Assembly (NCBI GenBank): GCA_009829735.1
Contig: CM020620.1
Span: 1,178,001 to 1,242,000, forward strand
Source of the DNA: Pyropia yezoensis
Taxonomy: Eukaryota; Rhodophyta; Bangiophyceae; Bangiales; Bangiaceae
Reading direction: 5' to 3'
Length of the DNA: 64,000 bases
The translations under genes were made by a program, and so were the position numbers. Shown piece by piece: positions 8,773 to 56,553 of the stretch (position 1 is the first letter of the stretch; each line of letters starts with the position of its first letter). Below the pieces are notes generated by a model. It did no database searches. It saw only the letters and a list, made by a program, of their open reading frames with translations, and had not been told where the DNA came from.

Positions 8773-8774
8773 AA

Positions 8775-14547: not shown

Positions 14548-16995
14548 ATGTCCTATCCCCAGGTGCTTGAAGAGGAGGAAGACCTCCTGATCGGGGAGGA
14601 GATGGAGGACGACGCGCCTGTCGGTCCCGACGCCGCGCGTTACGGGGTGAGCTCGTCTGACGACGACGGGCCTGCGGTGTCCGTCCGTCTGTCGGCCGGA
14701 GGACTGTCGTCCGTGTGCAGCGGCACGACGGTGCCGTCGGCCGGAGGTCAACCCGGCGGTCAACCGCGCGTGGCGGCTTCTACCCCCTCTCTGCCGGCTG
14801 CCCGGATGGGGCCTGGTGCCGGTGCCGGCTCACCGCAGGTACCTCAAGATGGTCCGCCCTGCGGCGGAGGTCGCGACCCGCAGCCGACTCCGGCTGGTCA
14901 AGGTGGTCCGGGTGTCCGGGCGGTGACTCCTCGAGGCGGTCCCGACGTTGACGCGGGTGGTGGTGGCGGTGCGACACCCGGTGCGGCGGGTCAAGACGGT
15001 GCGGGTGTCCGCACGGCCGGGGCTCCGGCTCCGGAGGCTGTCCAAGTGCCTTCCCCTTCCGAGGCGGGGGCTACGCCGACGGGTGGTGCCGGCGCCGGTG
15101 CCGTACCTGCGGTGCCGCGGGCGTCGAGCGGTCAAGACGCTCCTTCTCCCATGGCGGTTGACACCGGGAGTTACTCCGGGCGGGCGCCCGCCCTTCTTCT
15201 TCCTCCTCGGCCTCGTCCATCTCCGACGTCGGCCCCTCTGCCGGTGGTGCGTCCCCCGGCGCCCCCGATTCTTCCTGGTCCTGCCCGGGTTGCCCCGTTG
15301 GGTGGCGGCGTCGCCGTGGCGGCGGGTCAACCCGCCATGTCGGTGTCCGACTTGGTGGCTCGGGTTCGAGGCCTCACGGTGCAAGAGTCGATGGAGTCCG
15401 ATGGGCGTATGCGGGTGGACTTCCACCTGGTGCATCCCCGTGGAGAATCCTCCCGGCGCGTCAAGGTGGACCCATGCTGGGAGCGGGAGTTGGTTCGGCT
15501 GGTCAACCAGCCGAACGCGGTCCGGGTGGAACACCATTGGATCCTGAGTCAGCCGGACGACCGGCATGCGCAGCTCTGGCGCACCCGGGTGGGACGGGGT
15601 GAGGTCTACCTCGACCCCAACTTCGGGGTCTGCGACTTGATTGCCCCCGCGTTGCCGCGGGAGATTGACTACCCGGCTAGTGCTCGGGGGATTGCGGCGG
15701 CGGCGGAGCCGGTTGCGTTTGGGGAGACGGTGAGCCGTACCGGTCGGTATCCCGACTTTGACTACTACCCGGGGGTACCCCCGTATCTGTCGTTGACGGC
15801 TCCCTACCCGCCCATGGCGGGGTTGAAGTCGGCGTCGAGTTGGCGACGTAACCATGGTGTCATGGCGGATGCGTTCCGCACGGATATAACGTGTGCGTTG
15901 CAGACCGGCAACGGTCGTGCTCCGGTATACACTCCCGTGCGCCCGCCGCTATGGCAGGAGGGGTGGGAACCCGCCCCTGCTTTCCGGTTTGACACCGGCT
16001 CCTGCCTCCGATACTTCGGGAGTGTGTTGGCCTCCCGGCCGGTCCACCCGTTGCAGGGTACCTTCACCCTTGAGGTTACCCTCGGGCAGGCTTCATCCTT
16101 CTTGCTGTCCGTCCGCCGGCAGGGTCGTCTGTTTCATCTTCCGACGGGTGTCCGTCGGCACATCGCGCAGTTGGGCGTGGATCTGATAGCTGCCAAGACC
16201 GGGTTGGCCCGGGAGTTCGAAGCCCTGCTGGCTGTTCACGATGCCGTGAACTGGGCTGGGGTGTTGGCCCTTCCCCCGTACCGGGACCCGCAGGCTGGGG
16301 CTTCCCCCTTGCCTCGTCACTCGTTGCGTGTCCGGCGTACTCAGCCGGGTGAGCCTAGTTGCCATGGGTGGGCGTCCACCGAGGCCGTTCCTGACCTGGG
16401 TATTCCCATGGTTATCCATGACCCTCTTCAGGTCCTTGCTCCGTGGTTCGGTAACCCGATGCCGGCGGCGGTTGGCCGTCGTCCCCGAGAGTGGGGCTCT
16501 GTGGGTGGGGAGCGTGAGGTGTCCCGTCGTCGGGCGGAGTACCGCCGTGGTTACGGTGGAGCCCCTTCGGTAGGGTCCTACCGGGCCTCGTATCAAGTGC
16601 CACCGGCTCCGGTGGTAGCCGTGTCGGCTCCTGTGGCTCCTCTGGCTGCGCCAGTGTCACCTCCCGCTCCTGTCCTACATGACGGGGGTCCCCGTCTCTG
16701 GTATGAAGGCGTTGACGCCCTTGTTACCCGCGCAATGCGTGGGGGTCTCTCTGTTAGCTGGGGGGATATCCCCCCAGGTGCTGCGCTGGTTGGGTCAGCG
16801 CGTTGCTTTGGTGGCGTGCTGGACCGCCTCCAGAAAGCTCTGGAGGACGTGGAGGCTGGCCGCAGCACCCTCGTCCAGCTATGCACCGAGGTAACTCGGG
16901 TGGTCGACCGTCGTGACATTGCCGACCGGTGGAGCACGGAGGTATACGCGCTTACGCGTGAGTGGCCTCCCTCGGGCAGTGGGTCTACCCACTGA
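14548..16995 (+). CDS. F2 antisense ORF product (aORF2), complete copy
   Basis: 815 aa from an ATG at 14548. The frame is open about 280 bases further upstream without another ATG, so the start is inferred. The N-terminus is acidic (VLEEEEDLLIGEEMEDD), followed by a Gly/Pro/Ala-rich stretch to about residue 260, then a folded-looking region. A core at about residues 410-570 (VPPYLS, RYFGSVLAS, LFHLPTGV, LLAVHDAVNW) follows the same pattern as the antisense ORFs of F1 and F3. A Pro/Ala-rich linker and a helical C-terminus end the protein. It lies between pol and the 3' LTR on the opposite strand, converging with pol. No known domain is recognised. That it stays open in the youngest family suggests it is a real protein. 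Confidence 0.7.
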   Translation: MSYPQVLEEEEDLLIGEEMEDDAPVGPDAARYGVSSSDDDGPAVSVRLSAGGLSSVCSGTTVPSAGGQPGGQPRVAASTPSLPAARMGPGAGAGSPQVPQDGPPCGGGRDPQPTPAGQGGPGVRAVTPRGGPDVDAGGGGGATPGAAGQDGAGVRTAGAPAPEAVQVPSPSEAGATPTGGAGAGAVPAVPRASSGQDAPSPMAVDTGSYSGRAPALLLPPRPRPSPTSAPLPVVRPPAPPILPGPARVAPLGGGVAVAAGQPAMSVSDLVARVRGLTVQESMESDGRMRVDFHLVHPRGESSRRVKVDPCWERELVRLVNQPNAVRVEHHWILSQPDDRHAQLWRTRVGRGEVYLDPNFGVCDLIAPALPREIDYPASARGIAAAAEPVAFGETVSRTGRYPDFDYYPGVPPYLSLTAPYPPMAGLKSASSWRRNHGVMADAFRTDITCALQTGNGRAPVYTPVRPPLWQEGWEPAPAFRFDTGSCLRYFGSVLASRPVHPLQGTFTLEVTLGQASSFLLSVRRQGRLFHLPTGVRRHIAQLGVDLIAAKTGLAREFEALLAVHDAVNWAGVLALPPYRDPQAGASPLPRHSLRVRRTQPGEPSCHGWASTEAVPDLGIPMVIHDPLQVLAPWFGNPMPAAVGRRPREWGSVGGEREVSRRRAEYRRGYGGAPSVGSYRASYQVPPAPVVAVSAPVAPLAAPVSPPAPVLHDGGPRLWYEGVDALVTRAMRGGLSVSWGDIPPGAALVGSARCFGGVLDRLQKALEDVEAGRSTLVQLCTEVTRVVDRRDIADRWSTEVYALTREWPPSGSGSTH

Positions 16996-17476: not shown

Positions 17477-19500
17477 TTACAGTAGGCGTCGTCGCCTCAT
17501 GTAAGGCATGAGTAGTTGGCGGGGTATATTCGCCGCCTGTTCCCAGGTGGGTGAGTCGTATCCGACCCACATAACCTTGACGTACCAGGGTCCTGGTATG
17601 TCCGGGTCGGTGTGTCCGACCACGCTCTCTACTTGGTATGGAATCCCATCCGGTCCCACCGGGTCATCCGACCGGTGGGTTGTAAGAGCTTCATGTAGCA
17701 ACCCAGCCGGTACCGGCTGAGGCTGTTCCGGCTTCGGAGCAGGTGTGACATCATTCATACTGATGCGTTGGATCTCCGTATCGGAGTGTAAGATAACAGA
17801 GTGGTCATCTCTGTGGAGGATCTGGTACGGTCCCTTGACCGGTTGCATAAGCTTGTTCCCTCGGAACTTCTGGTGTCTGATATAGACCCAGTCACCTGTT
17901 ACCAGGGTTGCGTTGCGCACCCGTAGTCGGGCGTCGAAGTTCTTCTTATACCGAAGTTGTGTTCTGTCAAGGGCACCCTTGAGCTTAGGAATCATCCACG
18001 ATAGCTTGGCCAACCAAGCTAGGTGGATGCGTTCGGCGGGTCGGCCCTTCGGTGTATCATACCGAGTGCACCTGCCGGGTGGCAGCGTCAGGTTACCGAC
18101 GCCTAGTGGCATGACCCACTCCAGCGGAGCAATGTTTGTGCTCCGATGTGGCCTGGCATTGTATGCCAGGGTGAGTACGGACAGAAGCCTGTCCCAAGTG
18201 TTCGTGTGCTCGGCCACGTAGCACTGTAGCATCTTTACGATGGTGCGGTTGAACCGCTCCACCTGCCCGTTGGACTGCGGGTGGTAGTCGGCTGCCCGAC
18301 GTGGTTCGATACCGAACATGCCCAGGACCTTAGTGCAGAATGCCGACGTAAGGTTTGCTCCGTTATCGGAGAGGAGTTGCTTCATGACTCCGTATGCACT
18401 GATCCAGTGGTCAACCACTGCGTTCATGATCGTGTATGCCGTATCATTCGGGATGGCTGCCGCTCTGGACAGCTTAGTGAAGCGGTCAGACATGACCAGG
18501 ATGTACCTGTTCCCTTCTTCCGTTATCGGAAGTGGCCCGAGTATGTCGATAGCGACTTGCTCGTTGGGCCCATCAGGTGGGAATAGCTTCATGGCAGACG
18601 CCCGCCTATGTAGACTCATGCGGTTACGTGCACAGGGGTGGCATCCCCTTACGTGGTCGACCACGTCGACGGCCATTGCTGGCCAGTAGAAGAACCTCGC
18701 ATTGCTGCGAACATACGTGAACCCCCCGGGTGTCCGGCTGTAGGGTTCTCATGTTCTCGTTCCATGACGGCTTGCCGTAAGGACACGGGAACCACGACTT
18801 GATGTCGTCCATCGGCGGTGCCCGCCGGTATATGAGTCCGTCTTCGTTCTCGGAGAAGATCCCGGCCGTACCGGCCAGGAGGTTAGCACGATGACGTCTA
18901 CAGTCATCGTCGTTGGCCTGTGCCTCGCGGAAGTCCGCGAGGGTCAATGGGCACGCAAGGTGTGCCATGGTATGGTCAGCCATACCCTGGGTAGCATTAC
19001 CCACCATGCACACCGGTACTACCGGGATGTCCTCGTCCACCGGGCGGGTATCCCCGCTCGGGGTGTCGAGTCGAGACAACGCGTCTCCGAGTGGTGGGGT
19101 TGACCCAGCCTTATACACCGTGCGGTAGTCGTGCTCGGCCATTTCAGCCTCCATCGGGCTAGCCTCCCATGGCTATCGGAATCCTTGTCACCAGGTTGAG
19201 GAGCCATCGTAGGGTTCGTGGTCGGAACCTCACGATGAACCTGGAGCCCTCCAGGTATGGACGGAGCAGTTGCAACTTGCCCATATAACTCCGCAGCATT
19301 CCACGCCTCCGGTGGCACTATAGTTCCGCTCAGCCGGGTTGAGTGTCCGGCTGAAGTACCCTACCGGACGTAGGTCCGGGATAACGTTATCGGTACCGAT
19401 CAACGTCTCTCCCTGTAACAGGGTGCATCCCACTTGTGTATCACACGCATCGACATCGATGACGAAGGTACCCCGTCTATGCGGTAACGCAAGGACGGGT
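17477..19500 (-). pseudogene. pol: F2 pol, C-terminal half (piece 1 duplicate)
   Basis: Encodes part of RNase H, integrase (HHCC; DILGPLP; SDNGANL; NGQVERFN) and the chromodomain, ending RRRRLL at 17477. It overlaps 40022-42043 of piece 2 as a reverse complement. Frame breaks near 18720 and 19150 are single-base differences from piece 2 close to the sequence gap and look like consensus errors. Conversely, this copy keeps the chromodomain frame that piece 2 loses by one C near 41915. Confidence 0.85.
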
Positions 19501-22279: not shown

Positions 22280-24724
22280 TCAGTGGGTAGACCCACTGCC
22301 CGAGGGAGGCCACTCACGCGTAAGCGCGTAGACCTCCGTGCTCCACCGGTCGGCAACGTCACGACGGTCGACCACCCGAGTTACCTCGGTGCATAGCTGG
22401 ACGAGGGTGCTGCGGCCAGCCTCCACGTCCTCCAGAGCTTTCTGGAGGCGGTCCAGCACGCCACCGAAGCAACGCGCTGACCCAACCAGCGCAGCACCTG
22501 GGGGGATATCCCCCAGCTAACAGAGAGACCCCCACGCATGGCGCGGGTAACAAGGGCGTCAACGCCCTCATACCAGAGACGGGGACCCCCGTCATGTAGG
22601 ACAGGGGCGGGAGGTGACACTGGCGCAGCCAGAGGAGCCATAGGAGCCGACACGGCTACCACCGGAGCCGGTGGCACCTGATACGAGGCCCGGTAGGACC
22701 CTACCGAAGGGGCTCCACCGTAACCACGGCGGTACTCCGCCCGACGACGGGACACCTCACGCTCCCCACCCACAGAGCCCCACTCTCGGGACGACGGCCA
22801 ACCGCCGCCGGCATCGGGTTACCGAACCACGGAGCAAGGACCTGAAGAGGGTCATGGATAACCATGGGAATACCCAGGTCAGGAACGGCCTCGGTGGACG
22901 CCCACCCATGGCAACTAGGCTCACCCGGCTGAGTACGCCGGACACGCAACGAGTGACGAGGCAAGGGGGAAGCCCCAGCCTGCGGGTCCCGGTACGGGGG
23001 AAGGGCCAACACCCCAGCCCAGTTCACGGCATCGTGAACAGCCAGCAGGGCTTCGAACTCCCGGGCCAACCCGGTCTTGGCAGCTATCAGATCCACGCCC
23101 AACTGCGCGATGTGCCGACGGACACCCGTCGGAAGATGAAACAGACGACCCTGCCGGCGGACGGACAGCAAGAAGGATGATGCCTGCCCGAGGGTAACCT
23201 CAAGGGTGAAGGTACCCTGCAACGGGTGGACCGGCCGGGAGGCCAACACACTCCCGAAGTATCGGAGGCAGGAGCCGGTGTCAAACCGGAAAGCAGGGGC
23301 GGGTTCCCACCCCTCCTGCCATAGCGGCGGGCGCACGGGAGTGTATACCGGAGCACGACCGTTGCCGGTCTGCAACGCACACGTTATATCCGTGCGGAAC
23401 GCATCCGCCATGACACCATGGTTACGTCGCCAACTCGACGCCGACTTCAACCCCGCCATGGGCGGGTAGGGAGCCGTCAACGACAGATACGGGGGTACCC
23501 CCGGGTAGTAGTCAAAGTCGGGATACCGACCGGTACGGCTCACCGTCTCCCCAAACGCAACCGGCTCCGCCGCCGCCGCAATCCCCCGAGCACTAGCCGG
23601 GTAGTCAATCTCCCGCGGCAACGCGGGGGCAATCAAGTCGCAGACCCCGAAGTTGGGGTCGAGGTAGACCTCACATCGTCCCACCCGGGTGCGCCAGAGC
23701 TGCGCATGCCGGTCGTCCGGCTGACTCAGGATCCAATGGTGTTCCACCCGGACCGCGTTCGGCTGGTTGACCAGCCGCACCAACTCCCGCTCCCAGCACG
23801 GGTCCACCTTGACGCGCCGGGAGGATTCTCCACGGGGATGCACCAGGTGGAAGTCCACCCGCATACGCCCATCGGACTCCATCGACTCTTGCACCGTGAG
23901 GCCTCGAACCCGAGCAACCAAGTCGGACACCGACATGGCGGGTTGACCCGCCGCCACGGCGACGCCGCCACCCAACGGGGCAACCCGGGCAGGACCAGGA
24001 AGAATCGGGGGCGCCGGGGGACGCACCACCGGCAGAGGGGCCGACGTCGGAGATGGACGAGGCCGAGGAGGAAGAAGAAGGGCGGGCGCCCGCCCGGAGT
24101 AACTCCCGGTGTCAACCGCCATGGGAGAAGGAGCGTCTTGACCGCTCGACACCCGCGGCACCGCAGGTATGGTACCGGCGCCGGCACCACCCGTCGGCGT
24201 AGCCCCCGCCTCGGAAGTGGAAGGCACTTGGACAGCTTCCGGAGCCGGAGCCCCGGCCGTGCGGACACCCGCACCGTCTTGACCCACCGCACCGGGTGTC
24301 GCACCGCCACCACCACCCGCGTCAACGTCGGGACCGCCTCGAGGAGTCACCGCCCGGACCCCCGGACCACCTTGACCAGCCGGAGTCGGCTGCGGGTCGC
24401 CACCTCCGCCGCAGGGCGGACCATCTTGAGGTACCTGCGGTGAGCCGGCACCGGCACCAGGCTCCATCCGGGCAGCCGGCAGAGAGGAGGTAGAAGCCGC
24501 CACGCGCGGTTGACCGCCGGGTTGACCTCCGGCCGACGGCACCGTCGTGCCGCTGCACACGGACGACAGTCCTCCGGCCGACAGACGGACGGACACCGCA
24601 GGCCCGTCGTCGTCAGACGAGCTCACCCCGTAACGCGCGGCGTCGGGACCGACAGGCGCGTCGTCCTCCATCTCCTCCCCGATCAGGAGGTCTTCCTCCT
24701 CTTCAAGCACCTGGGATAGGACAT
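22280..24724 (-). pseudogene. F2' antisense ORF (aORF2'), frame-broken
   Basis: Near-identical to aORF2 (14548-16995) over its whole length, from the ATG at 24724 (MSYP) to the stop at 22280. Single-base length differences break the frame near the N-terminus (24712), near 22795 and near 22510. The middle 669 codons, including the conserved core, remain open. These changes may be mutations or consensus errors. Substitutions relative to aORF2 are few and spread out. Confidence 0.75.
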
Positions 24725-25674: not shown

Positions 25675-26121
25675 GAACTCCAGCGCGGGGTCTTGACCGA
25701 GATGGACAAGACTCGTCTTCATACGGCGGACCAGATGCGCATGGCACAAGACCGCTCCCAGAGCTTCTCGGGTTTCTCTTGGGTTGCTCGTCTAGAGGAT
25801 CTCCCCTTCGCGCTGGTGCTGGATCTACCCTTGACCGAGCGTCGCGTGTCCGCGTCCGTTCTCCGGTGGCCGGAGGAGGAAGGGTACGTCCACCGGGCGC
25901 TCAAGGTCTGGGACGAGGCGCTCAAGGGGTCGGGGAGCCTGAACTGCGACCCCCGTCCGAGCATGGTCGCTCTGGAGCCGCCTTTCCTGACCCGGAAATA
26001 CTCCAAGTTGTCGCCGGCACGGAAGCAAGGTGAGCGACGCGGACGTCAGCGTGACGTCCTAGGGAGCTGCAACCATCAGGAGTTCTGGAAGCTGGACAAG
26101 GCTAACCGGGCGGCGTACTAC
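25675..26121 (+). pseudogene. F3 element 3B antisense ORF, N-terminal part
   Basis: An open frame matching aORF3 codons about 103-250 (from LQRGVLTEMDK to NRAAYY), bounded left by the F2' LTR and right by the 3A LTR. It continues in piece 1 at 12915 downward. The 5 bases actac at its right end are the 3A target duplication. The first ~100 codons and the 3' LTR of 3B must lie beyond F2', outside the window. Confidence 0.85.
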
Positions 26122-26694
26122 TGTAGCATCCCTGGCCCCGACTTGGCGCCGACCCGGGACTACAACCAGAGGGCACCAGGTGCCAGAACACGCCCGCCGT
26201 GTGGTGATGGTTGGCGCCCGTGGCCCGTGCCCGGCACTGGGATGCGGTGGACTACGCTATACACACGTGAGAGAGGGATTTCTGATGGGTTTTTGCATAA
26301 TTGTGAGGGACTTGATTTGAGAGAATTTGAGTGTGAGATTAGTGAGTGGGAATAGAATTGGTAGTGATAGTGGCCCCCGACCTGACGAGGTTAGACTCGG
26401 GTCGGGGCCACTTGGGGTTATGCGGGGGCTACCTGGCCAACGTGCCGAGGCTCCCCCCCAGATGCACGTTAAGAGGGAGAGCGAAGCGTCCTTGGCCCGC
26501 GCCCTCAGGAAAAAGACAACTGCGCGTTTGCTTTCCTCTTCCCCGTGTGCACTACCGTGCGTATCTGTTTGCTCTGCGAGCAGGCACGTGAGGCAACAGG
26601 CATACCATTCTCGTAGTTCCCCTTTCTGTGTTACCTGTCCCTTTCCCCCGAGGGATATAGACACGTGTCTGAGAGGATCGAGTTTTATACCACA
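26122..26694 (+). repeat. F3 5' LTR of element 3A
   Basis: 573 bp, TGTAGCATCCC to ATACCACA, preceded by the duplication actac. Confidence 0.9.
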
Positions 26695-26698
26695 GATT

Positions 26699-26716
26699 TG
26701 GTGGAGCAGCAGGGGA
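26699..26716 (+). promoter_or_regulatory. Primer binding site (3A)
   Basis: TGGTGGAGCAGCAGGGGA, four bases after the LTR; identical to F1 and F2. Confidence 0.85.
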
Positions 26717-26906
26717 TGATTGGAGTGTTTGAGAAGAGACATTTGGGAGCAGCGGTTGGGTTGTTCCTGTTCTGTCTTTTTCTGTGGTTTGGGAATTATT
26801 TGCACCCGTTCACGGGAATCCCATTCCTGGCTCTCCAACCCCTCTCTTGTGGTCTGGCGATCTTTGGACACGCAGGCAACTGGACTGTGGCTGTCAAGAG
26901 ACCAAC

Positions 26907-35461: not shown

Positions 35462-35462
35462 T

Positions 35463-44023: not shown

Positions 44024-44523
44024 NNNNNNNNNNNNNNNNNNNNNNNNNNNNNNNNNNNNNNNNNNNNNNNNNNNNNNNNNNNNNNNNNNNNNNNNNNNNN
44101 NNNNNNNNNNNNNNNNNNNNNNNNNNNNNNNNNNNNNNNNNNNNNNNNNNNNNNNNNNNNNNNNNNNNNNNNNNNNNNNNNNNNNNNNNNNNNNNNNNNN
44201 NNNNNNNNNNNNNNNNNNNNNNNNNNNNNNNNNNNNNNNNNNNNNNNNNNNNNNNNNNNNNNNNNNNNNNNNNNNNNNNNNNNNNNNNNNNNNNNNNNNN
44301 NNNNNNNNNNNNNNNNNNNNNNNNNNNNNNNNNNNNNNNNNNNNNNNNNNNNNNNNNNNNNNNNNNNNNNNNNNNNNNNNNNNNNNNNNNNNNNNNNNNN
44401 NNNNNNNNNNNNNNNNNNNNNNNNNNNNNNNNNNNNNNNNNNNNNNNNNNNNNNNNNNNNNNNNNNNNNNNNNNNNNNNNNNNNNNNNNNNNNNNNNNNN
44501 NNNNNNNNNNNNNNNNNNNNNNN
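44024..44523. other. Assembly gap, exactly 500 N, bridged by piece 1
   Basis: Placeholder gap. Reverse complement of piece 1 overlaps both sides, so the missing sequence corresponds to 12707-15496 reversed, about 2.79 kb. Confidence 0.95.
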
Positions 44524-45074
44524 CGGCTTCGGCTTCTCCCCGACCTCCTGATGGTCTGGTTTGTCGACAAGTCGACCGTCGACTTCCTGTGCAGCCAGGA
44601 CGAGGAGTACAAGGAACTCATCCGGGCGATGCTTGACTTCCGGCGTCGGCTGCCGGTGCATGACCGGAACTTCTTGAACGCGATTGCCGACCAGAACCGC
44701 CCGCGTCGGGATGGCTCCAGTTGGGTGCGGGTGGTCTACCAGTCTTCTCCGGCCAAGGTGCAGCTGGCGACGCCGCTTCCGGCGTGGCCGCAGCTAGGCA
44801 GCTTTCCTGCTCCGGTCGCCCTTGATCATCTGCCAACTGGGCCGCCGGTGCAAGAGTCGGGGTGGGCCGCGGCGGTCGGTCGGGCGTCTGCGGCGGCTCC
44901 ACTTGCTCCTGTTGCACCTGTCATCCCGGTGGCTTCGCCTGGACCGTCGCCGGCACGTTTGCGTTCCGCTCCGCCTGTTCCGGTGCTTCAAGCTCCTCCG
45001 GCCCCGCGCTTATCCGCCGCGAGACAGGGGGTGGCCGTGCGGTCGCCGACTACTCCGGCCGTTCTGCCTCGGGC
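44524..45074 (+). pseudogene. 3B antisense ORF, middle part (piece 3 copy)
   Basis: Open frame from RLLPDLLMVWF to the Pro/Ala-rich tail; duplicate of 12156-12706 reversed. At 45074/45075 it runs into the reverse of integrase because of the deletion. Confidence 0.85.
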
Positions 45075-47984
45075 GACTCTTGGGAGCAGGAGCTTCAGTT
45101 GTTCCAGGAACTCATCCTTGGCCTTGGGACCTGATTTCAATGCAGGCTGGAGACCATCTGGTATTCTTTCCAGGGAGAAGTTGGTCAGCCGTCTTGGGGT
45201 GACAAAGTCGAGTGGAACGACTCCCGTTGTCCGGTGAGCTCGGGAGTTGTAGGCTAGAGTGACGACAGCCAGGAGCTCGTCCCAGTCTTCTTTGTGCTCC
45301 TCCACGTAGTGCCGTAGCATGTCTACTAGGGTCCGGTTGAATCGTTCCACCTGGCCGTTCGTTTGAGGGTGGTACGTCGTAGTGTACAAGTTCTTGATGC
45401 CCATCAGGTCACAGACTCCTTGGAAGAACAGGGATGCAAACTGGGGACCGTTGTCGGTTAAGACGGAGTCTGGAGGGCCTTAGGCAGCTATCCAGTACTC
45501 GCAGAAGGCTGACGTGACATCCAGAGCCGTGATGGTCCTCAGCGGGATTGCTCGAGTGAACTTGGAGAACCGGTCACAGATGATGAGCAAGTATATGTTG
45601 CCACTGGATGTCTCAGGTAGGGGCCCCCAGGATGTCCATGCTTAAGCTGGCAAAGGGTTCCGCCGCAGGGAATAGGCGTAGCTTAGAAGTCTTCTTCCTC
45701 TGGGACAACCGGTTCCTTGCACAAGAAACACAAGCCTCCAGGTGCTTATGGACGTCGCTGGCCATGGTTTCCCAGTAGTAATGTCGTCGCATTGAGGCAT
45801 ACATCCGATTGATGCCAGGATGTCCGCCCTGGGGAGACGATTTCTCCAGGCGTAGGATGTCAGCTCGTAGGCCCCGGGGTACGTATACTTGAGTGGCCCC
45901 ATCGAAGGGTGATACCCGTACCAGGAGTCCATCTGTAGACTCGGAGAAACGACTGTTCTGGTTCAGGTCCATTTGGTGGCGAAGCTCCAAGCATTGAGTA
46001 TCCGTCAATTGTGCCTCCAGCATCCGGTGAATGGTCACAGGTTGATGAGCTTCCGGTGTCTCATACAGGGGAGCATGCCAGCCACGTCCAACATTCGGGA
46101 GGATGAAGCAAGGTATTTCCTCCGGAATAGGACCGGTGTCGGCTGCAGGAGTCTCCAGCCGGGACATGGTGTCGGCGCAGTGGTGCTCCTTCCCTGCTCT
46201 GGTGCACACCTTGTACTTGAACTCTGAAAGGCGTAGGCGCCACCGGGCGACCCTTCCTTGGCTGCTGTCCATACATAGCAACCACCTTAGGCTGGCGTGG
46301 TCCGTCCGGATGAGGAACTCTTGTCCTTCAAGATATGGACGTAGCAGGAAGCAAGCCCACACGACTGCCAAGCACTCGCGCTCGGTCGTGGAATAGTTCT
46401 TCTCAGCTGGAGTCAAGACGCGACTGTAGTAGCCTATCGGGAGAAAGTGCCCATCAAGTTGCTGTTGGAGTAGTGAGCACCCCACCTGGACGCCACAGGC
46501 ATCCGTCTCCAGAACAAGCTGGCCCTCCCGCTTGGGTAACGCCAGTACTGGAGTGGTGGTCAGGCGCTTCTTGAGCTCTTCGAAGGCCGCGGTCTGCTTC
46601 TCGTCGAACACCGGGAGTTGTGCGGGAAGCTTCTTGCTGGTGAGCTTGGTCAATGGCCGGCAATCAGAGCATAGTCCCGTACGAACCGGCGGTAGACGTT
46701 GCACATACCCAGGAAGCTCTTGAGTTCCGTCTGGGTTTTAGGTTTCCGTGCATGCCGGAGGGCTTTGATGTTCTTCTCATAGACTCGGAGCTCCCCCGGA
46801 CTCAGCACGTGCCCCAGATACTCCACCTCAGTCTCAAACAGGTGGCACTTCTCGGCCTTGAGGGTAACTCCAGCCTTGGACAGGAGGGCTAGGACCTCTC
46901 GAAGGTGCTCCAGGTGTTCCGCTGGGGTCTTGGAGAAAACGATAATGTCGTCCAGGTAGACCAAACATGTTCTCCACCTTAGCCCGGACAGGATGATGTC
47001 GATGGCTCTTTGGAAGGTGGCCGGAGCATTGGTGAGACCAAAAGGAAAACGCATGCACCGGAATAGTCCCAGGTGGCACGTGAAGGTGGTCTTGTCCTTG
47101 TCCTCGTCAGCCAGAGGGATCTGCCAGTAACCGGCATTACAATCCAGCGTCGAGAAGAGGGTGGCATCACCAAGAAAGTCGAGGCAATCATCCATCCGGG
47201 GATCGGGTATACATCCTTGACGGTCATCTCGTTCAGGCGCCTGTAGTCAACGCAGAAACGGAAGTGACCGCCAGGTTTCGGGACGACTACCACTGGGAAG
47301 GCCACTCGCCATCAGATGGCTCGATAACATCCATCTTGAGCATCTTGTTAACCTGCTTCTCAATCTCATCCCGGCGATGAGGTCCAGCCCGATATGGTTG
47401 CATGTGCACTGGTTTAGCTTCCGGCTTGAGTGAATCCGGTGTAGAGTGGCGTCCATCTTGCCCAGCTCTCCCGACCACAGGTGCCGATATTCCTGGAGAA
47501 GCTTCTCCAGTGCCTCCTTTAAGTCGGGAGGGACATTTTCTTGTTTGACCTTCGGCATCCCGGGTGATGCTTGTTCGGGCTTCGGGAGTAGCGCTGCCAG
47601 CCTGCTCTTGTTTCGGAGGTACGTCTAAGGCCGTCAAGTTGGATGCCAGCTCTTGTTGCAGGTTCAAGAGGTCTTCCTTGCTCATAGCACGGGGCGGACC
47701 CTGGTAAGGCTCTGCTGTACCAACTCGGGTGCCCTTGGCGAGGGTTATTAGCTTCCGGCTCACGTTGACGATTAGCACCGAGAACGGGGTGTGCCTTTCT
47801 ACCTTCTTGTGATGTCCGTGGGCCAAGTATAACTGGTGTTTCGCCAGAAATTCCCTATGTCCATAGATCAGGTATTGACCTGCGATCCGAATCGTTACTT
47901 GAACCTTGGTCTCCGAGCGAGGAGGTAGGAGCACCGGTTTGAAGAGAGTCAAGGTAGAGGGTGGGATGCGTTCCCTCTTGTTCT
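45075..47984 (-). pseudogene. pol: 3B pol, internal part (piece 3 copy)
   Basis: Duplicate of 9244-12155. The frame breaks near 45625 (extra C), 46655 (missing G), 47205 (missing T), 47300 (missing C), 47430 and 47575. In the same places piece 1 is open, so most of these are probably consensus errors. The TAA in integrase (45482-45484) is in both copies and in 3A. Confidence 0.83.
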
Positions 47985-48452
47985 TGTGGCAGTATTGACC
48001 CCCAGGTAGGGGGGCAACACGTGCCATGCAAGGGGCGGCAGGCCACTAGCCTGATCTGTTCCTCCCCCTGCATTTGGGTCCACATTCCCTAAGTTTGGGA
48101 TAGTTAGCTCAGTAGTATTTCCAACTGGGATTTGAGGGTTTTCTGCATTTATCGTCTTGAATGTCCGTGTGGCCCGGTGGGCAGGTGCTGGGGTGGGAGA
48201 TTCTGAGTGGCGAGATTCTGAGTGGACCCTGGGGGGATAAGGGGAGGGACAGCGGGGCCTGGCCCTGCGTCCCCGTCCCGACCAAGAAACTGTTGGACCA
48301 CACACCATCCTCTTGTTTGTCAGTGGGGAGTTTGCCCCACAACAGGGACAGAGTGTGTGCGACTTGCACTTCTTCCGGTTCCCCCGACACGGGAGGCAGC
48401 CCTTGTACACCGCTCCAACTTGGGTGTCGCGTGTGCGAGTGGTTTTTGCCAC
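47949..48452 (-). other. Antisense Cys-rich ORF in the F1 5' LTR
   Basis: An open frame of up to 167 codons from an ATG three bases inside the LTR end. Near its start is C-x2-C-x6-C-x5-C-x2-C (CLPCRGNRKKC, then CPCC), with basic residues between the second and third Cys. This is the layout of the first half of a Zn2Cys6 cluster; a further Cys follows 12 residues later. The same Cys are kept in the 3' LTR copy. The rest is Pro/Ser-rich, and this copy runs past the LTR into 3B sequence. It may be chance. Confidence 0.35.
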
Positions 48453-48453
48453 A
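47985..48453 (+). repeat. F1 5' LTR
   Basis: 469 bp, TGTGGCAGTATTG to GGTTTTTGCCACA; the 7-bp ends TGTGGCA/TGCCACA are inverted. Confidence 0.95.
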
Positions 48454-48455
48454 TT

Positions 48456-48473
48456 TGGTGGAGCAGCAGGGGA
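48456..48473 (+). promoter_or_regulatory. Primer binding site (F1)
   Basis: TGGTGGAGCAGCAGGGGA, two bases after the LTR. Confidence 0.88.
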
Positions 48474-48572
48474 CAGAGGTAAACTTTACCTCCGGGTGCA
48501 CCCGGGTGTAGGGGGCCCTCTGTCTCAGAGGAACGGTGGACTTGGACCTTGTCATACGGATCGTCAGCCAAC

Positions 48573-50519
48573 ATGGCTAGTTCGGACCCCCCGTCGTCCG
48601 GGGAGTACACGGGTGACGCACGTACTTCAGTGCCTTCGAATACTGGTGAGACACAGGTGGGTTTACCTGGGGTCGCAGAGGGACTAGAGGTCCCTCAAGC
48701 CAGCAGGACTGGAAGTGTGGGCGGGCAACAGGCCACCTCGACTCAGTCGGGAGTTCACTCGGGTGACACTTCTGATGTGGGTGGGCCGAAGTCTGGCCAC
48801 CGTGTGGTATACTCAACGGGAACGTCCCAAGGGGTGAGGACTGTCCCCGCGGGTTCCACTCGGGTTGGAGCCAACTTTGGCTTGGAGCCGTCGCCAACTA
48901 GGCTTTCGGAGGACGGCGGACCTCCGTTGGTCGGCGATGAGCTCGCGCCCATGCCCCCGGTTGAGACCCCTGAGGAACGTGGTTACCCCTCAGGCGGACT
49001 CCCGGAGGCGGACCGAGACTCAACTGGAGTCGTCAATCCCCTCCTCGCGGAAACTGTCCGTCGGGAGGCGACCAATATGTTGCGGCAGACTTTGCCGGAC
49101 CTGGTGGTCACGATGACGAATACTATTCTGAATCAGATTGTGGCGAGTTTGCCAGATGGCCTTAATGTCCAGACCGGATTGGGGCTTTCGAGTCCGCAGG
49201 CGCAGGGGGAATCTCCCCTGACGCCTCTTCCGGGTCGCCCCGAACAGGGGGGGACCCCTGTGACTCCCAACGTGGGAGCCGCACCATTCTCGGTGGGGCG
49301 TACGCCCTTCACGGGGGAGTTCCACTCGGAAACGCCGGCGGCTACACCAAGCTCGCCGTACCAGACTACAGGCGCTGAGGGTCAACTGACCCCAGTGCCA
49401 CAGCGGCTGTTCCCTCAACGTGAGGTGCCGCCCAAGATCCAGGTAGCCAACCCGGTCTACCAGAGGATCTTTGACTGTGAGACCTACGCCCTCCACAACA
49501 AGTCGGTGGCGTATGGTCCTGACCAGGCCCGAGCCATGGGCCGTGCCAAGAAGAATGCACTTCATTCTTTTGGGCACAAAGCGGAGTGGGATGGAACTCC
49601 CCCCCTCCGTGTCTTTGAGTTCCTACGTCGTTTCACAAAAGCCTGTGACGACAATGCCATAAGTGAAGGCATGGCTTTTTACATGCTACAGGAGTTTACG
49701 AAGGGAGACCTACGGACAGAACTTATGTCCGTCATGCCCAGCTCCTCAAGTGGAGGCGCTGGGGAGGTGACGTCCTATTTGGAGCTCGTCAACTGGTTGT
49801 TGAGGGCCATGGTTGATGAAGCGGCGTTGGCTTCTCAAGTCGAGGAGTTTACGCAAGCCCATCAGGAAGAGGCGGAGGACGAGTTGTTCTTTGCGGAGCG
49901 AGTCCGTAAGCTCGACAATCTTTGTGGGTTTTTTCATCCACAAGCCGTGGTGGAGAGTCGGTTTGTGGAGGGACTCCATTGGTCAGTTCGGATGGAGACC
50001 CGGGAGCATAACACTGCCCGGGCGACCCTGGCCGAGTTGGCTAGGTTCGCCTACCGCAGAGGTGAGGCCTACCGCAAGTTGCGGGAGGAACAACGCCAGA
50101 AGCGTCAGGCCGAGTGGGCCAAGGAACGGGAGGAGGCGCGCCGAGCCAGAGAGTTCAGAGAGGCGCGCCGAATCCGCAAGGAGAGGGCGGTAGCTGCCGT
50201 GGGAACTTCCCAGGGTATCTCTTCGTCTTCCCCAGTTGAGAAGACCCCTCCGGGAACTGACAATCGGTGTTGGAACTGCAATTCCGATGGACACTGGGCA
50301 CATGAGTGCCCCAAGTTGAGTAAACGCATTCAACAACTTGTTAGGAATGCGAGTAAGAAGTCGGCTACGAACGAAGTACGTTCCCGCCGCGAGGGTGGGT
50401 CTCGACCGATCGTCGCGGTCGCCACACCCTCGGCGGAGGAGGCGGACACGTCGTCCTCGGACTCGTCGTCTTCCTCCCCGCCCTCAGATTCGGACGCCAA
50501 GTCGGCGGGAAACGAATGA
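48573..50519 (+). CDS. gag: F1 Gag polyprotein
   Basis: 648 aa from ATG 48573. A long disordered N-terminal half (Pro/Ser/Thr/Gly) comes first. A capsid-like region spans roughly 275-480 (FDCETYALHNKS, FLRRFTKACDDNAISEG, ELVNWLLRAM, RFVEGLHWSVRM), then an Arg/Glu-rich helix. The CCHC knuckle CWNCNSDGHWAHEC lies about 70 residues from the end, followed by a Ser/Asp-rich tail ending SAGNE. The stop TGA overlaps the first ATG of the pol frame (ATGA at 50516-50519), so reinitiation is an alternative to frameshifting for making Pol. Confidence 0.9.
   Translation: MASSDPPSSGEYTGDARTSVPSNTGETQVGLPGVAEGLEVPQASRTGSVGGQQATSTQSGVHSGDTSDVGGPKSGHRVVYSTGTSQGVRTVPAGSTRVGANFGLEPSPTRLSEDGGPPLVGDELAPMPPVETPEERGYPSGGLPEADRDSTGVVNPLLAETVRREATNMLRQTLPDLVVTMTNTILNQIVASLPDGLNVQTGLGLSSPQAQGESPLTPLPGRPEQGGTPVTPNVGAAPFSVGRTPFTGEFHSETPAATPSSPYQTTGAEGQLTPVPQRLFPQREVPPKIQVANPVYQRIFDCETYALHNKSVAYGPDQARAMGRAKKNALHSFGHKAEWDGTPPLRVFEFLRRFTKACDDNAISEGMAFYMLQEFTKGDLRTELMSVMPSSSSGGAGEVTSYLELVNWLLRAMVDEAALASQVEEFTQAHQEEAEDELFFAERVRKLDNLCGFFHPQAVVESRFVEGLHWSVRMETREHNTARATLAELARFAYRRGEAYRKLREEQRQKRQAEWAKEREEARRAREFREARRIRKERAVAAVGTSQGISSSSPVEKTPPGTDNRCWNCNSDGHWAHECPKLSKRIQQLVRNASKKSATNEVRSRREGGSRPIVAVATPSAEEADTSSSDSSSSSPPSDSDAKSAGNE
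50507..50513 (+). promoter_or_regulatory. -1 frameshift heptamer GGGAAAC with pseudoknot (F1)
   Basis: gcG GGA AAC GAA TGA in the gag frame. After a 6-base spacer a stem forms between 50520-50530 (CCGTTG then GAGCT) and 50541-50552 (AGCTC, one bulged A, CAACGG). Loop bases 50531-50535 (GGCCG) can pair with 50559-50563 (CGGCC), giving an H-type pseudoknot. Heptamer, spacer and structure match the standard -1 signal. Confidence 0.88.
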
Positions 50520-53500
50520 CCGTTGGAGCTGGCCGTCCGAAGCTCACAACGGCAGCCTCGGCCAAGTGGGTCAAGAGGACGAACCAACCGTGCCGGATAC
50601 TGCGGCGACCTAAGGGAGTCCGCCCACCTCGGGTAGGACTCCCCAAGAACGTAAACTCACGTCGGGTCATCGCGGTCCTGACGGGTGAGAACTTCCAGGT
50701 GGCTGGACGGGTGCAACTTGCCCCCGGCCGCGCCTGTGGTGCCCGTATCGTACTTGATACCGGGTCAGGAGCCTCCTTGATACGCAAGTCGCCATTACCA
50801 AAGGAGATGAAGCTCCTACGCTGGAGGTCCAAAGCTGACCATATGATTGACATCAAGGGTGGGGTACTTCCCATCGTTGGTGCCGTGACCCTACCAACTA
50901 GGTTGGGGACCCATGAGGTCGACGTGACCTATGGAGTAGTTGAGAATATATCGGTACCCCTGCTTCTGGGTACCCCTTATGTCGTAACACAAGTGCCTTT
51001 GATTTGTGGCCCTGAGCATTGGGTCAAGTTGATGAATGGGGAGACCATCCCCATCCTTGGTAAGGGAAAGTCTGTGGCTCCTGTGACAGTCTCACAGTCG
51101 AAGCCTGTTTGCTCTGTGAGGGAAGGGATTACTGCTAACCTGCGTTTAGCCCGTAAAGTCACGTTGCCCCCCAACTCGGTGGCGCACTTTGACGTTGTAA
51201 CTGATTATACGGGGAACGGGATTGTGCACCCTTACCCCCGTCTTGCTCGCAAGCACCAAGTGCTTGTTGCCCTTGGCACGATGGACTCCAAAGCCAGAGT
51301 CCCGTGGAGGATCCAGGTGATGAACCTGAGCTCGTCGCCCCAGTACTTCAAGTCGGGAGCCAAGTTCGGCTATATCTATCAACACGAGGGACCGGTAGTA
51401 GCGGTCACCCTCAACGCGGGCGGAAGTAGCGACCCGAAGTCCGGAAAGGAGAAGCATCAAGCCAAGTCGGCCGCCTCTCCTCGACCCCATGTGAACATGG
51501 AGGGTGTTCCCCCCAGGTTGAGGGTTCAAGTTGAACGCCTCTTGGACCAATATCCTAAGTTGTGGGATGGTCAATTGGGACTCATGATAGCTACCCAACA
51601 CCGGATCGAGTTGAAGCCCGGTGCACCCCCTATACGCCAACAACCGTATAGGGGAGGACCCCGTTCAAGGGCTCTCGTTAGGAGCAAGCTGCTCGCATGG
51701 AGGCCCTCGATGTGATCGAGGCCAGCAACGCCGAGTGGGCGAGTCCGGTGGTTATCGTCCCCAAAGTTGATGGGACCCCCCGGTTCTGTATCGACTACCG
51801 TAAGCTCAACGAGAGAACGGTGAAGGACAATTATCCCCTACCTAGGATGGTTGACTGTCTGGATTCTCTGGGGGAGGCGAACGTGTTCTCTACTCTGGAC
51901 TGTAACGCGGGGTACTGACAAATTCCCATTGCCCCGGAGGACAGGCATAAAACTACCTTTACCTGTCACTGTGGTACCTACCAGTGCAAGCGTCTACCGT
52001 TTGATCTGTGTAACGCGCCGGCAACTTTCCAGCGCGCTGTGGACATGATTCTGGCCGGAGTACGGTGGCAGATCTGTCTTTTGTACCTAGACGATATCAT
52101 TGTGTTCTCCCGAAGTCCGGAGGAGCACATTGGCCATCATGGCCAGGTGCTCAAGCTACTTGCTGACGCCGGTGTGTCACTGAAGGCGAGTAAGTGCCAC
52201 CTCTTCACTCAAGAGGTGGAGTACTTGGGACATGTTGTCCGTCCGGGGCGTCTCAGTGTGAACGAGAAGAACTTGAGGGCCATCCGTAAGGCTCAGTACC
52301 CCCGGACCCAGACCCAGATGAGGAGCTTCCTCGGGATGTGTAACGTGTACCGACGTTTCACCAAGGGCTTCGCCAAGGTGGCAAAGCCGTTGAATGAGTT
52401 AGTGAGCTCAACGCTATCGAAGAACCTGCCTCCCCCAAGTCGGGTGGAGCAGGAATCCTTTGAGACTCTTCGGGACCTTCTGCTGAAGCCCCCTATCCTG
52501 GCTATTCTCAAGTTGGGAGGCCACTACATCCTGGATGTGAATTCTAGCTACGACCAACTTGGTTGTGTGTTGCTTCAGCAGCAGCCGGACAAGGAGTACT
52601 TGCCGGTGGGATACTTTAGCAAGGGGCTGAACTCGGCCGAGAAGAACTACGGAGTCACCGAGTTGGAAGGACTTGCAGTGGTGTGGGCGGTGACGTCACT
52701 TCGTCACTACCTAGAGGGTAAGAAGTTCCTCATCCGCTGTGACCACCGCGCGTTGCAGTTCATCTTTAAGACGGACTGTACGAACACTCGTCTCAACCGG
52801 TGGAGGGTGCGACTGGCACCCTTCAACTTTGATATTGAGTAACGACCTGGCAGGCAACATGCCCTTGCCGACGGCCTCTCTCGGGTACCTACCGAGGGGC
52901 TGGACACTAACCCAGTCGATGAGGACATCCCCATCGTGGGGGTAGTCACGCGCTCGGGTCAGGCGTTGAACCCCGAGGCGCCAGGGAACAAGAAGTACTT
53001 GCCCCTGTCCCTGGACGAGGTGGTGAAGGCCCAGGCCGAGGATCCCTTCTGCAAGTCGCAGAGGGATACACTGGATACAGTGGCGGAGACGCGGTTCTTC
53101 CTGGGAGACGATGGCCTCCTCATGAGGAGGGGGGTATTCCAGGGGACCGAACAACTTTTCGTCCCCGCATCACTCAAGGGCAGTATCCTTGAGAGGGAGC
53201 ACAACGCTTCCACGAGTGGACACCTGGGGTCTAGTAAACTGTACCAGACCCTGAGGACCAGGTACTACTGGCCGTCCATGGTGGTGGACATCTACAGTTG
53301 GGTGGCTGCCTGCACAAGTTGTGCACAGAACCGTCTGATGGAACGGCGGCCTACTACGGCTATGCTATTGTTTCCGGCCAAGGAGCCCTTTGCCGCGTTG
53401 GCGATGGACATCCTTGGGCCACTGCCAGTGACCAAGGAGGGCAACCAGTACCTCCTGGTCATCTGGGACCGCTTCACGAAACTTACGCGAGCGATCCCAC

Positions 53501-54498
53501 TGGCAGAGATCACGGCCATGTCGGTCGTGTCAGCCTTCCTAGATCACTGGGTTGCCGCGTATGGCATCCCAGATAGTACACTATCGGACAATGGACCGCA
53601 ATTTGCGTCTGTACTGTTTCAGGGAGTGCTGGATATGTTGGGGGTTAAGGCAAACCATGCCACCCCCTACCACCCACAAACTAACGGGCAGGTGGAGCGC
53701 TTCAACAAAACTATTGTTAGGCAGCTGCGCCACTATGTGAGTGAGCACGTGAAAACGTGGGACCAATACATATCTATTCTTACCACTGCCTACAATTCGC
53801 AGGTTCACTCATCTACCGGGGAAGTACCCCTCGCTTTTGTGACCCCCCGTCGCGTGCGGTCTATTGCCGTGCGGCGGCCGCTCCCAACTAGGGAGGATGG
53901 TGGCAGTAAGCCTACTCCTACTGAGAGTAAGGCGGAGTTCGCTGCTAGACTTGAACACCTCATCCCTAAAGTCTGGGCTGAGATGGACAAAGCACAAAAG
54001 CGCTACAAGCGTACCTTTGACAAAGAGGTGCGCAACGCCAAGCATGTCCCCGAGCAGGGTGACTGGGTATTGGTCCACTCACACACCCCAACTGGGGGTA
54101 AGTTGGTATTCCAGACGAAGGGGCCGTACCAGGTCCTTCGTACTGATGGGCGGCGCTTCACCATCGAAAGTGACGATTGGGTCCGCACAGTGAACGGACA
54201 GGACGTGGTCAAAGTTGCACCAACGCCTGCAGGCGACCCAGCTTGGGCGCGTGCTTTGGAAGCATGGCGCCTCCCCTCACTGCCTGCGGCCGAACAGGGC
54301 CCGCAGGAGTACGTGTTCGATAAGTTCATCGACCACTGCTGGGTTGAGGACACTGACCGCCTCATGTTGAGGGTCCGTTGGTTTGGCTACAAAGCCAAGG
54401 ATGATACGTGGGAGTATGTAGAGGACCTTCCCGCTGAGAAGGTCCGGGCGTACTGTGCCCGGAATGAGATAGACCCTAACAGCCCTCCCTCAACTTGA
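50514..54498 (+). pseudogene. pol: F1 Pol, three breaks
   Basis: The -1 frame from the slippery site carries protease (IVLDTGSGASLI), RT (FCIDYRKLNE, YLDDIIVFS), RNase H (ELEGLAVVWA, RCDHRAL, ALADGLSR), an HHCC finger (GHLGS...CTSCAQN) and the integrase triad (MDILGPLP, LSDNGPQF, NGQVERFN). A chromodomain (LRVRWFGYKAKDDTWE) ends it. The breaks, present in both assembly copies, are a one-base frameshift near 51682 just before RT, a TGA at 51916-51918 replacing Trp of GYWQIP, and a TAA at 52840-52842 replacing Tyr after FDIE. In RT the usual FG of PFGL is FD. The element is probably not autonomous. Confidence 0.9.
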
Positions 54499-54609
54499 GG
54501 GAAGGCCGAGCAACAGTGCCAAGAGAGTGCTTCAAGTCGAAGTGGTACGCAGAGTGGCTTTTAATTACAGCCCTAACCCTCACACTCTCACAACAAAGGC
54601 AGCTGCCAA
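54499..54609. other. F1 convergent junction
   Basis: 111 bp between the pol and aORF1 stops. It contains an AT-rich ttttaatta patch but no repeat array. Confidence 0.5.
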
Positions 54610-56553
54610 CTAGGCATGCATGCTAGACTCTCCCACCCCACGGCCCTCGCCCTCACGTAGAGCCGAGCGGCGAGACCCACGGCGATAACGCTCCCCACCA
54701 GTCGGAGGGGGCAGCGGCTCCAAGTCGGAACCGTCGCGCCCCTCACGGTCGAGCAAGAGGCGCCGACCGTGGCTACTCTTCTGCTTGGTCTTGCGCGCAA
54801 GTTTGCGACGCAGACGCCGGACCGACTCCGACTCTGACGGAGTCGAGGACTCCGAGACGGAGTAAGACAACTCGTCTTCCGACACGGAGGGAGAGCGCCG
54901 CGAGTGTCGGCGACGACGGCGAGGAGGCGAGTATGCCCGGCTCGCACGACGTTTGCCACGCCCAAGTGGGGCTGGCTGGGGCATAATAGCCCCAATGCGA
55001 GCCAACTCGGCCGTCGTAAACTCCGCCACCGACTCGCAACTCGCGGTCGCCACTGCAGTACGAACGCGCTCCTCAAGTTGAGAAGTCTCGGAGGTTTGAA
55101 GGGTTCCGGTCGACGCGGCCAACCAGGAAATGGTGCGCACCAACGTGGTGATCATCATCTCTGAGGTTAGAGGCGTGGGCGGTAACACCAACTTGGGGTA
55201 TACCGTCAGGAGGGTGGCCCCCAGGTTGGGGGACACCGGGGTGGACGACTCAACGGCCACGCTAATCGGGATGTTCCCGTGCGGCTGGAAGGGGACAGTA
55301 GGAAGCGGAGGGGCACGCCGAGGTGGCGGGACCCGGGTGTAACTGCGACCTCGACTTGGGGCCCCCGCAGTGGGTTGAGTCATATGGTCATCATATGAGG
55401 GCACGGCCATAACTATGGGCTTGTCCGGGGGTGGCGCAGTGTGACGATCCACCCCCGGGGCATACGGGTAGTCCCCGATGCCCAACCCCTCTCGTAGGAC
55501 CACACGGCCGTCGTGAAGTCCACGAGCGACCCACACGAACTGGCGAAGTGCGCCATCGTCCTTGGGCCCACGAGTGGGGCGGCGCAACTTGTGCTCAATG
55601 CTCTCCCACTCGATAAACTTGTGGAGGCGGAGCATCTCCTCAAGTAGAGTGAGTTGTCCTGATGAGCACCCCTCAGCAACTAGCTGAGGGGTCAGCTGTT
55701 CCAAACCTTGGGTAAGCCGGAGGGGGAGATGCCAGAGCATCCCCCGCCGCAGAACACAAGACACCCAGGTCGACATGACCTCGAGGAGCCACTGGGTGGC
55801 CAACATGGCCCACACCAGGTGATCAGGGCCAGCCGTCAACATGACGGAGCCGAAGTGGTCAAGCAACCGTGGCAGCAACGCCGGGAACCCGTAGGGGACC
55901 TCAACTTGAGGCCACCACTCGGGCTTCTTCGGATAGTACTGCTCCTTACTGGCAGCAGACTGCTGAGGAACCTCAACTTGAGCCGAGTTCACCAAGTAGG
56001 GACCTCGCCGGAAGTCCTTCTCCATCCGCACATCAAAGTGATGAGTGTGCGGATCGGCCTCTTGAAGGTACGGGGGGCGAGTTGCCACCGCGTCCCAAGT
56101 AAAGGTCGGCAAGTCGCCGGGACCCGGGATAGTTCCCCCGCGGTCCACCATGGCCTTGGTCCGCTGAATGTAATCGACCTCCCCGTCGTCCAGGAAGGCA
56201 AACTGGTCCGTCCTGAAGCCGGCAGGGAGCCCGACCCTACGGGGATACTTCTCCCGTAGGCGGTCCCATACCTGACCCATCGCTGCGCCAAGTCGGCCAC
56301 AGCGAAGAACAGTCAACCCCTCCTCATATAGAGGCCAATCGGGGTAAAACCACCGCCCCAAGGCCTCACGCGGGACAACTTGTCCCGCCTCCGGGGGAGA
56401 TCCCGCCGTCAACCCAAAGCCGGGTGACGCGGGAGTCCCATCCCCCGGAGCAATCGCGGAGCCCCCGCCGGAAGTCCCGGCGAGTGCTGCACCGTAGGTG
56501 GTGTCCTCCATACGCTCGTCCAGACAGTCCGTATCCACTCCCGGGGTCGCCAT
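54610..56553 (-). CDS. F1 antisense ORF product (aORF1), complete
   Basis: 647 aa from ATG 56553 (MATPGVDTDC); the frame is open further upstream without an ATG. The core at about residues 127-317 has DYIQRTK, TRPPYL, EKDFRRGPYLV, YYPK, TQWLLEV, MLWHLP and LRLHKFIEW, and aligns by eye with aORF3. A Pro-rich linker follows, then a helical stretch near 460-530. The C-terminal region is strongly Arg/Ser-rich (RRRRRHSRRSPSVSEDE) and basic, which would suit nuclear localisation or nucleic-acid binding. No enzyme motif is recognised. It is open although F1 pol is broken. Confidence 0.75.
   Translation of the reverse strand: MATPGVDTDCLDERMEDTTYGAALAGTSGGGSAIAPGDGTPASPGFGLTAGSPPEAGQVVPREALGRWFYPDWPLYEEGLTVLRCGRLGAAMGQVWDRLREKYPRRVGLPAGFRTDQFAFLDDGEVDYIQRTKAMVDRGGTIPGPGDLPTFTWDAVATRPPYLQEADPHTHHFDVRMEKDFRRGPYLVNSAQVEVPQQSAASKEQYYPKKPEWWPQVEVPYGFPALLPRLLDHFGSVMLTAGPDHLVWAMLATQWLLEVMSTWVSCVLRRGMLWHLPLRLTQGLEQLTPQLVAEGCSSGQLTLLEEMLRLHKFIEWESIEHKLRRPTRGPKDDGALRQFVWVARGLHDGRVVLREGLGIGDYPYAPGVDRHTAPPPDKPIVMAVPSYDDHMTQPTAGAPSRGRSYTRVPPPRRAPPLPTVPFQPHGNIPISVAVESSTPVSPNLGATLLTVYPKLVLPPTPLTSEMMITTLVRTISWLAASTGTLQTSETSQLEERVRTAVATASCESVAEFTTAELARIGAIMPQPAPLGRGKRRASRAYSPPRRRRRHSRRSPSVSEDELSYSVSESSTPSESESVRRLRRKLARKTKQKSSHGRRLLLDREGRDGSDLEPLPPPTGGERYRRGSRRSALREGEGRGVGESSMHA

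Follow-up and report, generated by a model that had tools for sequence, protein, structure and literature searches.

Three families of Ty3/gypsy retrotransposons in the red alga Pyropia yezoensis, here called F1, F2 and F3, each carry a long open reading frame (ORF) on the strand opposite gag-pol, between pol and the 3' long terminal repeat (LTR). We studied these antisense ORFs (aORFs) in a 64,000-nt stretch (GCA_009829735.1, CM020620.1:1,178,001-1,242,000; hereafter the window) and in the 107.5 Mb genome around it. The frames are long in all three families, their products are homologous in a central domain, they evolve under purifying selection and their antisense position is fixed. We propose, with a probability of about 0.6, that the aORF encodes a trans-acting, probably nuclear regulatory, accessory protein of a red-algal gypsy clade.

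An earlier account made from the letters of the window (the sequence-only reading) had reported ORFs of 647-815 aa opposite gag-pol, between pol and the 3' LTR. The frames are as described: 647 aa in F1 (54610-56553, minus strand), 815 aa in F2 (copy a, 14548-16995, plus strand, the element itself lying on the minus strand) and 705 aa in F3 (32901-35018, minus strand). On the strand opposite them, Pfam profiles match zinc knuckles, protease, reverse transcriptase (RT), RNase H, integrase and, weakly, the chromodomain. In shuffles that keep dinucleotide composition (300 trials per family), the longest open frames reached at most 338, 435 and 377 codons for F1, F2 and F3, and none of the 300 in any family attained the observed aORF length. 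The sense-strand frames of the same regions contain 7-25 stops. Pol lies on the strand opposite the aORF in all 38 F1 and F3 loci, and this placement, antisense and between pol and the 3' LTR, matches the named class aORF-3R.

Purifying selection on the antisense frame

Divergence between copies was measured by Nei-Gojobori counts with an in-house script, skipping codons with a stop (one in F1, four in F3); the F1 and F3 loci were those whose proteins best matched the window copies. Across eight F1 copies, the aORF has a mean nonsynonymous divergence (dN) of 0.0138 and a mean synonymous divergence (dS) of 0.105. The C-terminus of F1 pol gives 0.0115 and 0.0699 in the six of eight loci where it aligned over at least 80%. 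Without the window copy, the dN/dS ratio (w) of the F1 aORF is 0.09, and one pair of F1 copies (L004 and L007) differs by 3 nonsynonymous and 54 synonymous changes (Fisher p 6e-29). In thirty F3 copies, w is 0.303 for the aORF versus 0.362 for the pol C-terminus; the F3 LTR was usable in 28 of the 30. Changes segregating among copies, counted with the window copies (L001 and L009) excluded, comprise 40.5 nonsynonymous and 128.5 synonymous in seven F1 copies and 188 and 158 in 28 F3 copies, the expected nonsynonymous share being 0.73-0.74. One F3 locus whose match starts a codon late (L031) was dropped from these and the segment counts and realigned for the thirty-copy comparison; it was kept in the codon-position averages, so that the F3 rows there are distorted. 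F2 copies are nearly identical, with 2 nonsynonymous and 12 synonymous changes between copy a and L039. The sequence-only reading had taken the gene to be maintained, and dN/dS in the aORFs is indeed far from neutral.

Constraint extends along most of the aORF and is strongest at aa 321-400 in F1 and aa 561-640 in F3. Of about 81 changes in F1, 46.4 fall at third positions of antisense codons. Because the sense frame that shares these positions contains 25 stops, the constraint belongs to the antisense frame.

Among the F1 loci (L001-L008), aORF dS in eight copies exceeds pol dS in six (0.070), and LTR divergence is 0.024 in eight. An aORF dS above both values suggests recombination between element lineages.

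The protein family and its distribution

BLASTP and Z-score comparisons show significant similarity between the F1 and F2 products and between those of F1 and F3. The homology asserted by the sequence-only reading is thereby borne out for a central domain only (F1 aa 139-319, 55597-56139, minus strand; F2 aa 392-572, 15721-16263, plus strand; F3 aa 200-362, 33933-34421, minus strand; the last two delimited by BLASTP). C-terminal comparisons between families gave Z values of -0.9, -0.3 and 2.6, which we do not count as similarity. A homologous accessory gene kept across families is thus supported.

The products probably begin with a disordered N-terminus, followed by a conserved helical domain of about 160-190 aa in the centre, a segment rich in proline and additional helices. 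An AlphaFold2 model from three sequences is mostly helical where anything is predicted, and block means of the predicted local distance difference test (pLDDT) reach 61-77 only at aa 461-520, the site of the predicted C-terminal helices of F1 (aa 464-519, 54997-55164, minus strand). The aORF products show no sequence similarity to the elements' own Gag, and a hydropathy scan, made without a dedicated predictor, found no transmembrane-like segment (maximum 19-residue Kyte-Doolittle means of 1.27, 1.37 and 1.45). As far as sequence can tell, these features argue against a membrane protein and against Gag. No significant relative appeared in PHROGs, a PDB profile search, IMG/VR or GTDB; the last covers prokaryotes and IMG/VR covers viral contigs, where red-algal relatives are not expected.

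LTR retrotransposons are the predominant class in the 48% of the P. yezoensis genome that is described as repeats (PMC7423979). Our genome searches list the best 150 matches per query, all near-identical copies, among which more diverged aORF families would not appear. Full-length aORF matches among these best-scoring copies number at least 68 for F1, 63 for F3 and 55 for F2, of which 66 of 68, 49 of 63 and 53 of 55, respectively, have no internal stop. With the core alone as query, there are at least 150 F1 copies, none with a stop among the matches listed, and at least 150 F2 copies, 148 of the 150 listed being free of stops.

To look beyond F1-F3, we can turn to a search of the genome with the chromodomain profile PF00385, in which the 150 matches listed (54.3-66.5 bits) resolve into 24 loci (L040-L063). 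By DNA identity these constitute three other gypsy families, C-A, C-B and C-C, with two loci more diverged. The aORF core profile matches none of the 24, within 1.5 kb flanks that are perhaps slightly too short to include a core at the F1 position. Open stretches on the antisense strand 3' of the chromodomain reach at least 150 codons in 17 loci, at least 200 in six and at least 300 in one (387, L060), which appears to be about what shuffled GC-rich sequence gives. A tandem locus (L064) has about 2.1 kb between the pol stop and the next frame, gag-like by reading, and no antisense stretch longer than 177 codons in the 4.4 kb examined. An unrooted integrase tree, built from a single sequence for each family, splits F1-F3 from the three other families with support 100; integrase identity is 37-51% within F1-F3 and 24-28% against C-A, C-B and C-C (one locus per family). 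Among the six families sampled, the aORF therefore marks one clade and has persisted through the divergence of that clade.

Family C-C has a recurrent 153-codon antisense stretch downstream of pol (810-1268, plus strand), listed for L050, L061, L062 and L063.

Possible functions and known antisense genes

We envisage a second transcription unit on the complementary strand of each element. Its mRNA would start from an antisense promoter within the 3' LTR or just internal to it, run back toward pol and be translated into the 647-815-aa protein, this last step being one to which selection on the antisense frame points indirectly. From the aORF start codon to the 3' LTR the distance is about 340 bp in F1, 590 bp in F2 and 185 bp in F3 (measured in L011). 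Most probably the protein would work in trans, as a nuclear regulator or a chaperone-like factor that aids spread of the element; it might, for example, control transcription or silencing of the element or escort its RNA or cDNA. We rank a nuclear regulatory role first because of the analogy to Grande gene23 and HBZ, followed by anti-silencing and then by a structural role. Basic, nuclear localization signal (NLS)-like clusters occur near the C-terminus of the F1 product in a sequence scan.

Several observations weigh against this proposal. The same scan finds no such clusters in F2 and F3. Pfam yields no known domain in the full frames (E 1) or the cores (E 10); the sole match, DUF6214 in the longer frame of F2, is sub-threshold (13.2 bits versus a cut-off of 26.6; E 0.1) and is gone in the F2 core at E 10. 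The AlphaFold2 model, with a mean pLDDT of 36.5, is too poor to give a fold. The signal of selection is weak between F2 copies a and b (11 nonsynonymous, 13 synonymous changes), w in F3 is just moderate at 0.30-0.43, and constraint on the C-terminal tails is weak (w 0.31 at F1 aa 561-640, 0.53 at F3 aa 641-705). Choosing loci by protein score lowers dN somewhat, yet in neutral sequence this choice could not bring about the F1 signal, a dN near 0.01 at a dS near 0.11. Finally, aORF similarity is greater between F1 and F2 than between F1 and F3, but the integrase tree groups F1 with F3 (support 86); given these different orders, recombination or uneven rates are possible.

The aORF might instead be non-coding, a by-product of GC-rich composition or of constraint acting on the opposite, sense strand. 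GC content is high in the window (0.44-0.69 per 2 kb block), long open frames are more frequent in such sequence, and 17 of the 24 loci of other families hold an antisense stretch of at least 150 codons. Against this stand the shuffles, of which none matched the observed lengths, the 7-25 stops in the sense frames, the selection on the antisense frame and the protein domain common to the families. As a full account, the by-product is refuted by dN/dS and protein homology, and we give it next to no weight. Hardly more probable is that the antisense RNA does the work rather than a protein. PMC7264820 discusses regulatory RNAs transcribed antisense from retroelements, but nonsynonymous sites are specifically constrained here; dN/dS refutes RNA as the sole function, though the RNA may have an added role.

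The remaining alternatives accept a protein. Arabidopsis VANDAL elements are protected from silencing by VANC, and the aORF product could likewise be an anti-silencing factor that shields the element from DNA methylation or small-RNA silencing by the host. The high copy number (at least 150 F1 cores, 150 F2 cores and 63 F3 copies) would fit, and an overlapping antisense transcript would form double-stranded RNA, which could make a counter-measure useful. Counter to this, high copy number has many causes and no domain match points to such a function, so that we regard anti-silencing as rather unlikely. Less probable again is a structural or Env-like protein, whether particle component, membrane protein or cell-exit factor, made from the antisense strand. 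It would occupy the slot of env, between pol and the 3' LTR, and would suit the large size and the partly helical prediction, itself of low confidence; however, the frame is antisense rather than sense in all 38 F1 and F3 loci and has no transmembrane-like segment. We find it equally doubtful that the gene derives by capture from the host or another mobile element and persists outside gypsy elements, an account of origin that is compatible with the functional readings. That no relative of the aORF was found leaves room for it, and a diverged single-copy homologue would escape a genome search of the best 150 matches; all 38 F1 and F3 loci nevertheless adjoin pol on the other strand.

The arrangement itself is not new: plants and fungi already have a named class of antisense ORFs in this slot. 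The name aORF-3R covers Grande, RIRE2, Retand, PvRetro13 and fungal Boty, whose function PMC7264820 gives as not known; in Grande, RIRE2 and Retand the antisense genes are reported from most copies and are conserved like other element proteins (PMC7264820, PMC11963269). The Discussion of PMC11963269 likewise gives the role of antisense LTR-retrotransposon genes as not known. The sequence-only reading had itself noted antisense ORFs in some plant Ty3/gypsy elements; what appear to be new are the protein family and its red-algal host lineage. No antisense ORFs in red-algal LTR elements were found in the open-licence literature searched.

Maize Grande gene23, rice RIRE2 and Silene Retand share the antisense slot between pol and the 3' LTR, and Grande gene23 is described as having an antisense transcript and a nuclear protein (PMC7264820, PMC11963269). 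TRP28 (PF04195) is reported as encoded antisense in 97% of recent Retand clusters (PMC11963269). It was not detected in this red alga: neither the genome nor the three aORF cores match PF04195 at E 10. A suspected resemblance to the plant TRP28 domain around the F1 'HFG' stretch was rejected on that ground and because the published six-position spacing matches the aORFs no better than it matches shuffles. Retand is classed as a non-chromovirus (PMC11963269). The F1-F3 integrases end in weak PF00385 matches (F1 2.8e-4, F3 2.1e-3, F2 0.08, all below cut-off), which may set them apart from it. Chromodomain Gypsy lineages are reported outside chromoviruses (PMC12477816). PvRetro13 ORF2 of Phaseolus occupies the same slot and is reported to have an SMC domain (PMC7264820), unlike F1-F3, which have no Pfam domain above cut-off. 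Boty of Botrytis cinerea, likened here by ORF position, does not come from a plant but also has its antisense ORF in this slot (PMC7264820). Another algal mobile element with an accessory gene opposite its transposase, Sola1-1_Ec32 of the brown alga Ectocarpus, is a DNA transposon with ParB-like and DNA-methyltransferase domains (PMC12477816); neither has a Pfam match in the F1-F3 aORFs.

HBZ and other human T-lymphotropic virus (HTLV) antisense genes offer a retroelement parallel, with a nuclear regulator expressed from an antisense promoter in the 3' LTR (PMC7264820, PMC11963269). In F1-F3 a purine-rich tract precedes the 3' LTR (F1 56.87-56.89 kb; F2 13.96-13.99 kb; F3 L011 3766-3799), and read antisense it resembles a 3' splice site, a run of pyrimidines with CAG or TAG at its end. 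Genes of the HBZ type are spliced from a donor in the LTR to a downstream acceptor. Such splicing is not supported in F1-F3, where the antisense LTR strand has no GTRAG donor and has GTNNGT in F1 and F2 only; a spliced antisense mRNA is a weak lead, the tract having been seen without a control from other families. The antisense LTR strand of all three families also contains ACTACTAA, possibly a promoter or processing element that they have in common.

We tentatively suggest, as something short of an even chance, that an undescribed antisense-encoded family defines a red-algal gypsy clade and is either independent of plant aORF-3R genes or a remnant of a common ancestor. The presence of an aORF beyond land plants and fungi, with no detectable link to TRP28 and with purifying selection in diverged families, argues that such proteins matter and that their genes had either several origins or a very ancient one. 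If the origin was independent, antisense accessory genes would be convergent and answer a recurrent need of gypsy elements. If ancestry is shared, an ancestral antisense gene would predate the split of red algae and green plants. Nearly identical elements at high copy number in a seaweed amenable to culture offer a direct way to seek the antisense transcript and protein.

Element structure and the window

The window consists of Ty3/gypsy elements nested in one another and contains two N gaps of 500 bp. F1 (plus strand) is bounded by a 469-bp 5' LTR (47985-48453) and a 3' LTR (56892-57360), found by self-BLAST with boundaries set by reading, and flanked by the target-site duplication GTTCT (47980-47984 and 57361-57365). 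Its gag, with a zinc knuckle, lies at 48573-50519 (PF00098 3.9e-5, frame tested from 48549). Its pol, in several open pieces in this copy (50516-54498), encodes part of RT, RNase H, integrase and a weak chromodomain, with Pfam matches in 52039-52842 and 52936-54498 and none in 50516-51715. A few bases inside the 5' LTR, at the expected position of the primer-binding site, F1-F3 have TGGTGGAGCAGCAGGGGA in common.

F2 copy a (minus strand) has its 3' LTR at 13597-13960 and the integrase part of pol at 17477-18676 (PF00665 1.3e-9). A second F2 aORF (copy b, 22701-24710, minus strand) is open for 669 codons only, and a third (copy c, 43167-44023, minus strand) is partial, cut by the N gap at 44024-44523. 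F3 has a 573-bp 5' LTR (26122-26694, plus strand) and two open pol pieces identified by Pfam (28853-31741 and 31817-32755, plus strand), the 3' LTR of this copy lying outside the window.

Two ORFs on the minus strand (60245-61291, 348 aa, and 62923-63972, 349 aa) have no Pfam match at E 0.1. Positions 1-12706 and 44524-57232 are reverse complements, 99.83% identical over 12.7 kb, and the latter copy adjoins an N gap; the pair is perhaps an assembly duplicate or an unmerged haplotype. A second F1 aORF piece found by hmmsearch (395-1816, plus strand) lies inside this duplicate. Another F3 aORF is a remnant (12155-12915, minus strand) cut at 12916 by an inverted F3 LTR. An F3 element sits reversed inside another F3 aORF (25675-26122, 34266-34712, 12911-12916), with the 5-bp duplication GTAGT at both junctions.
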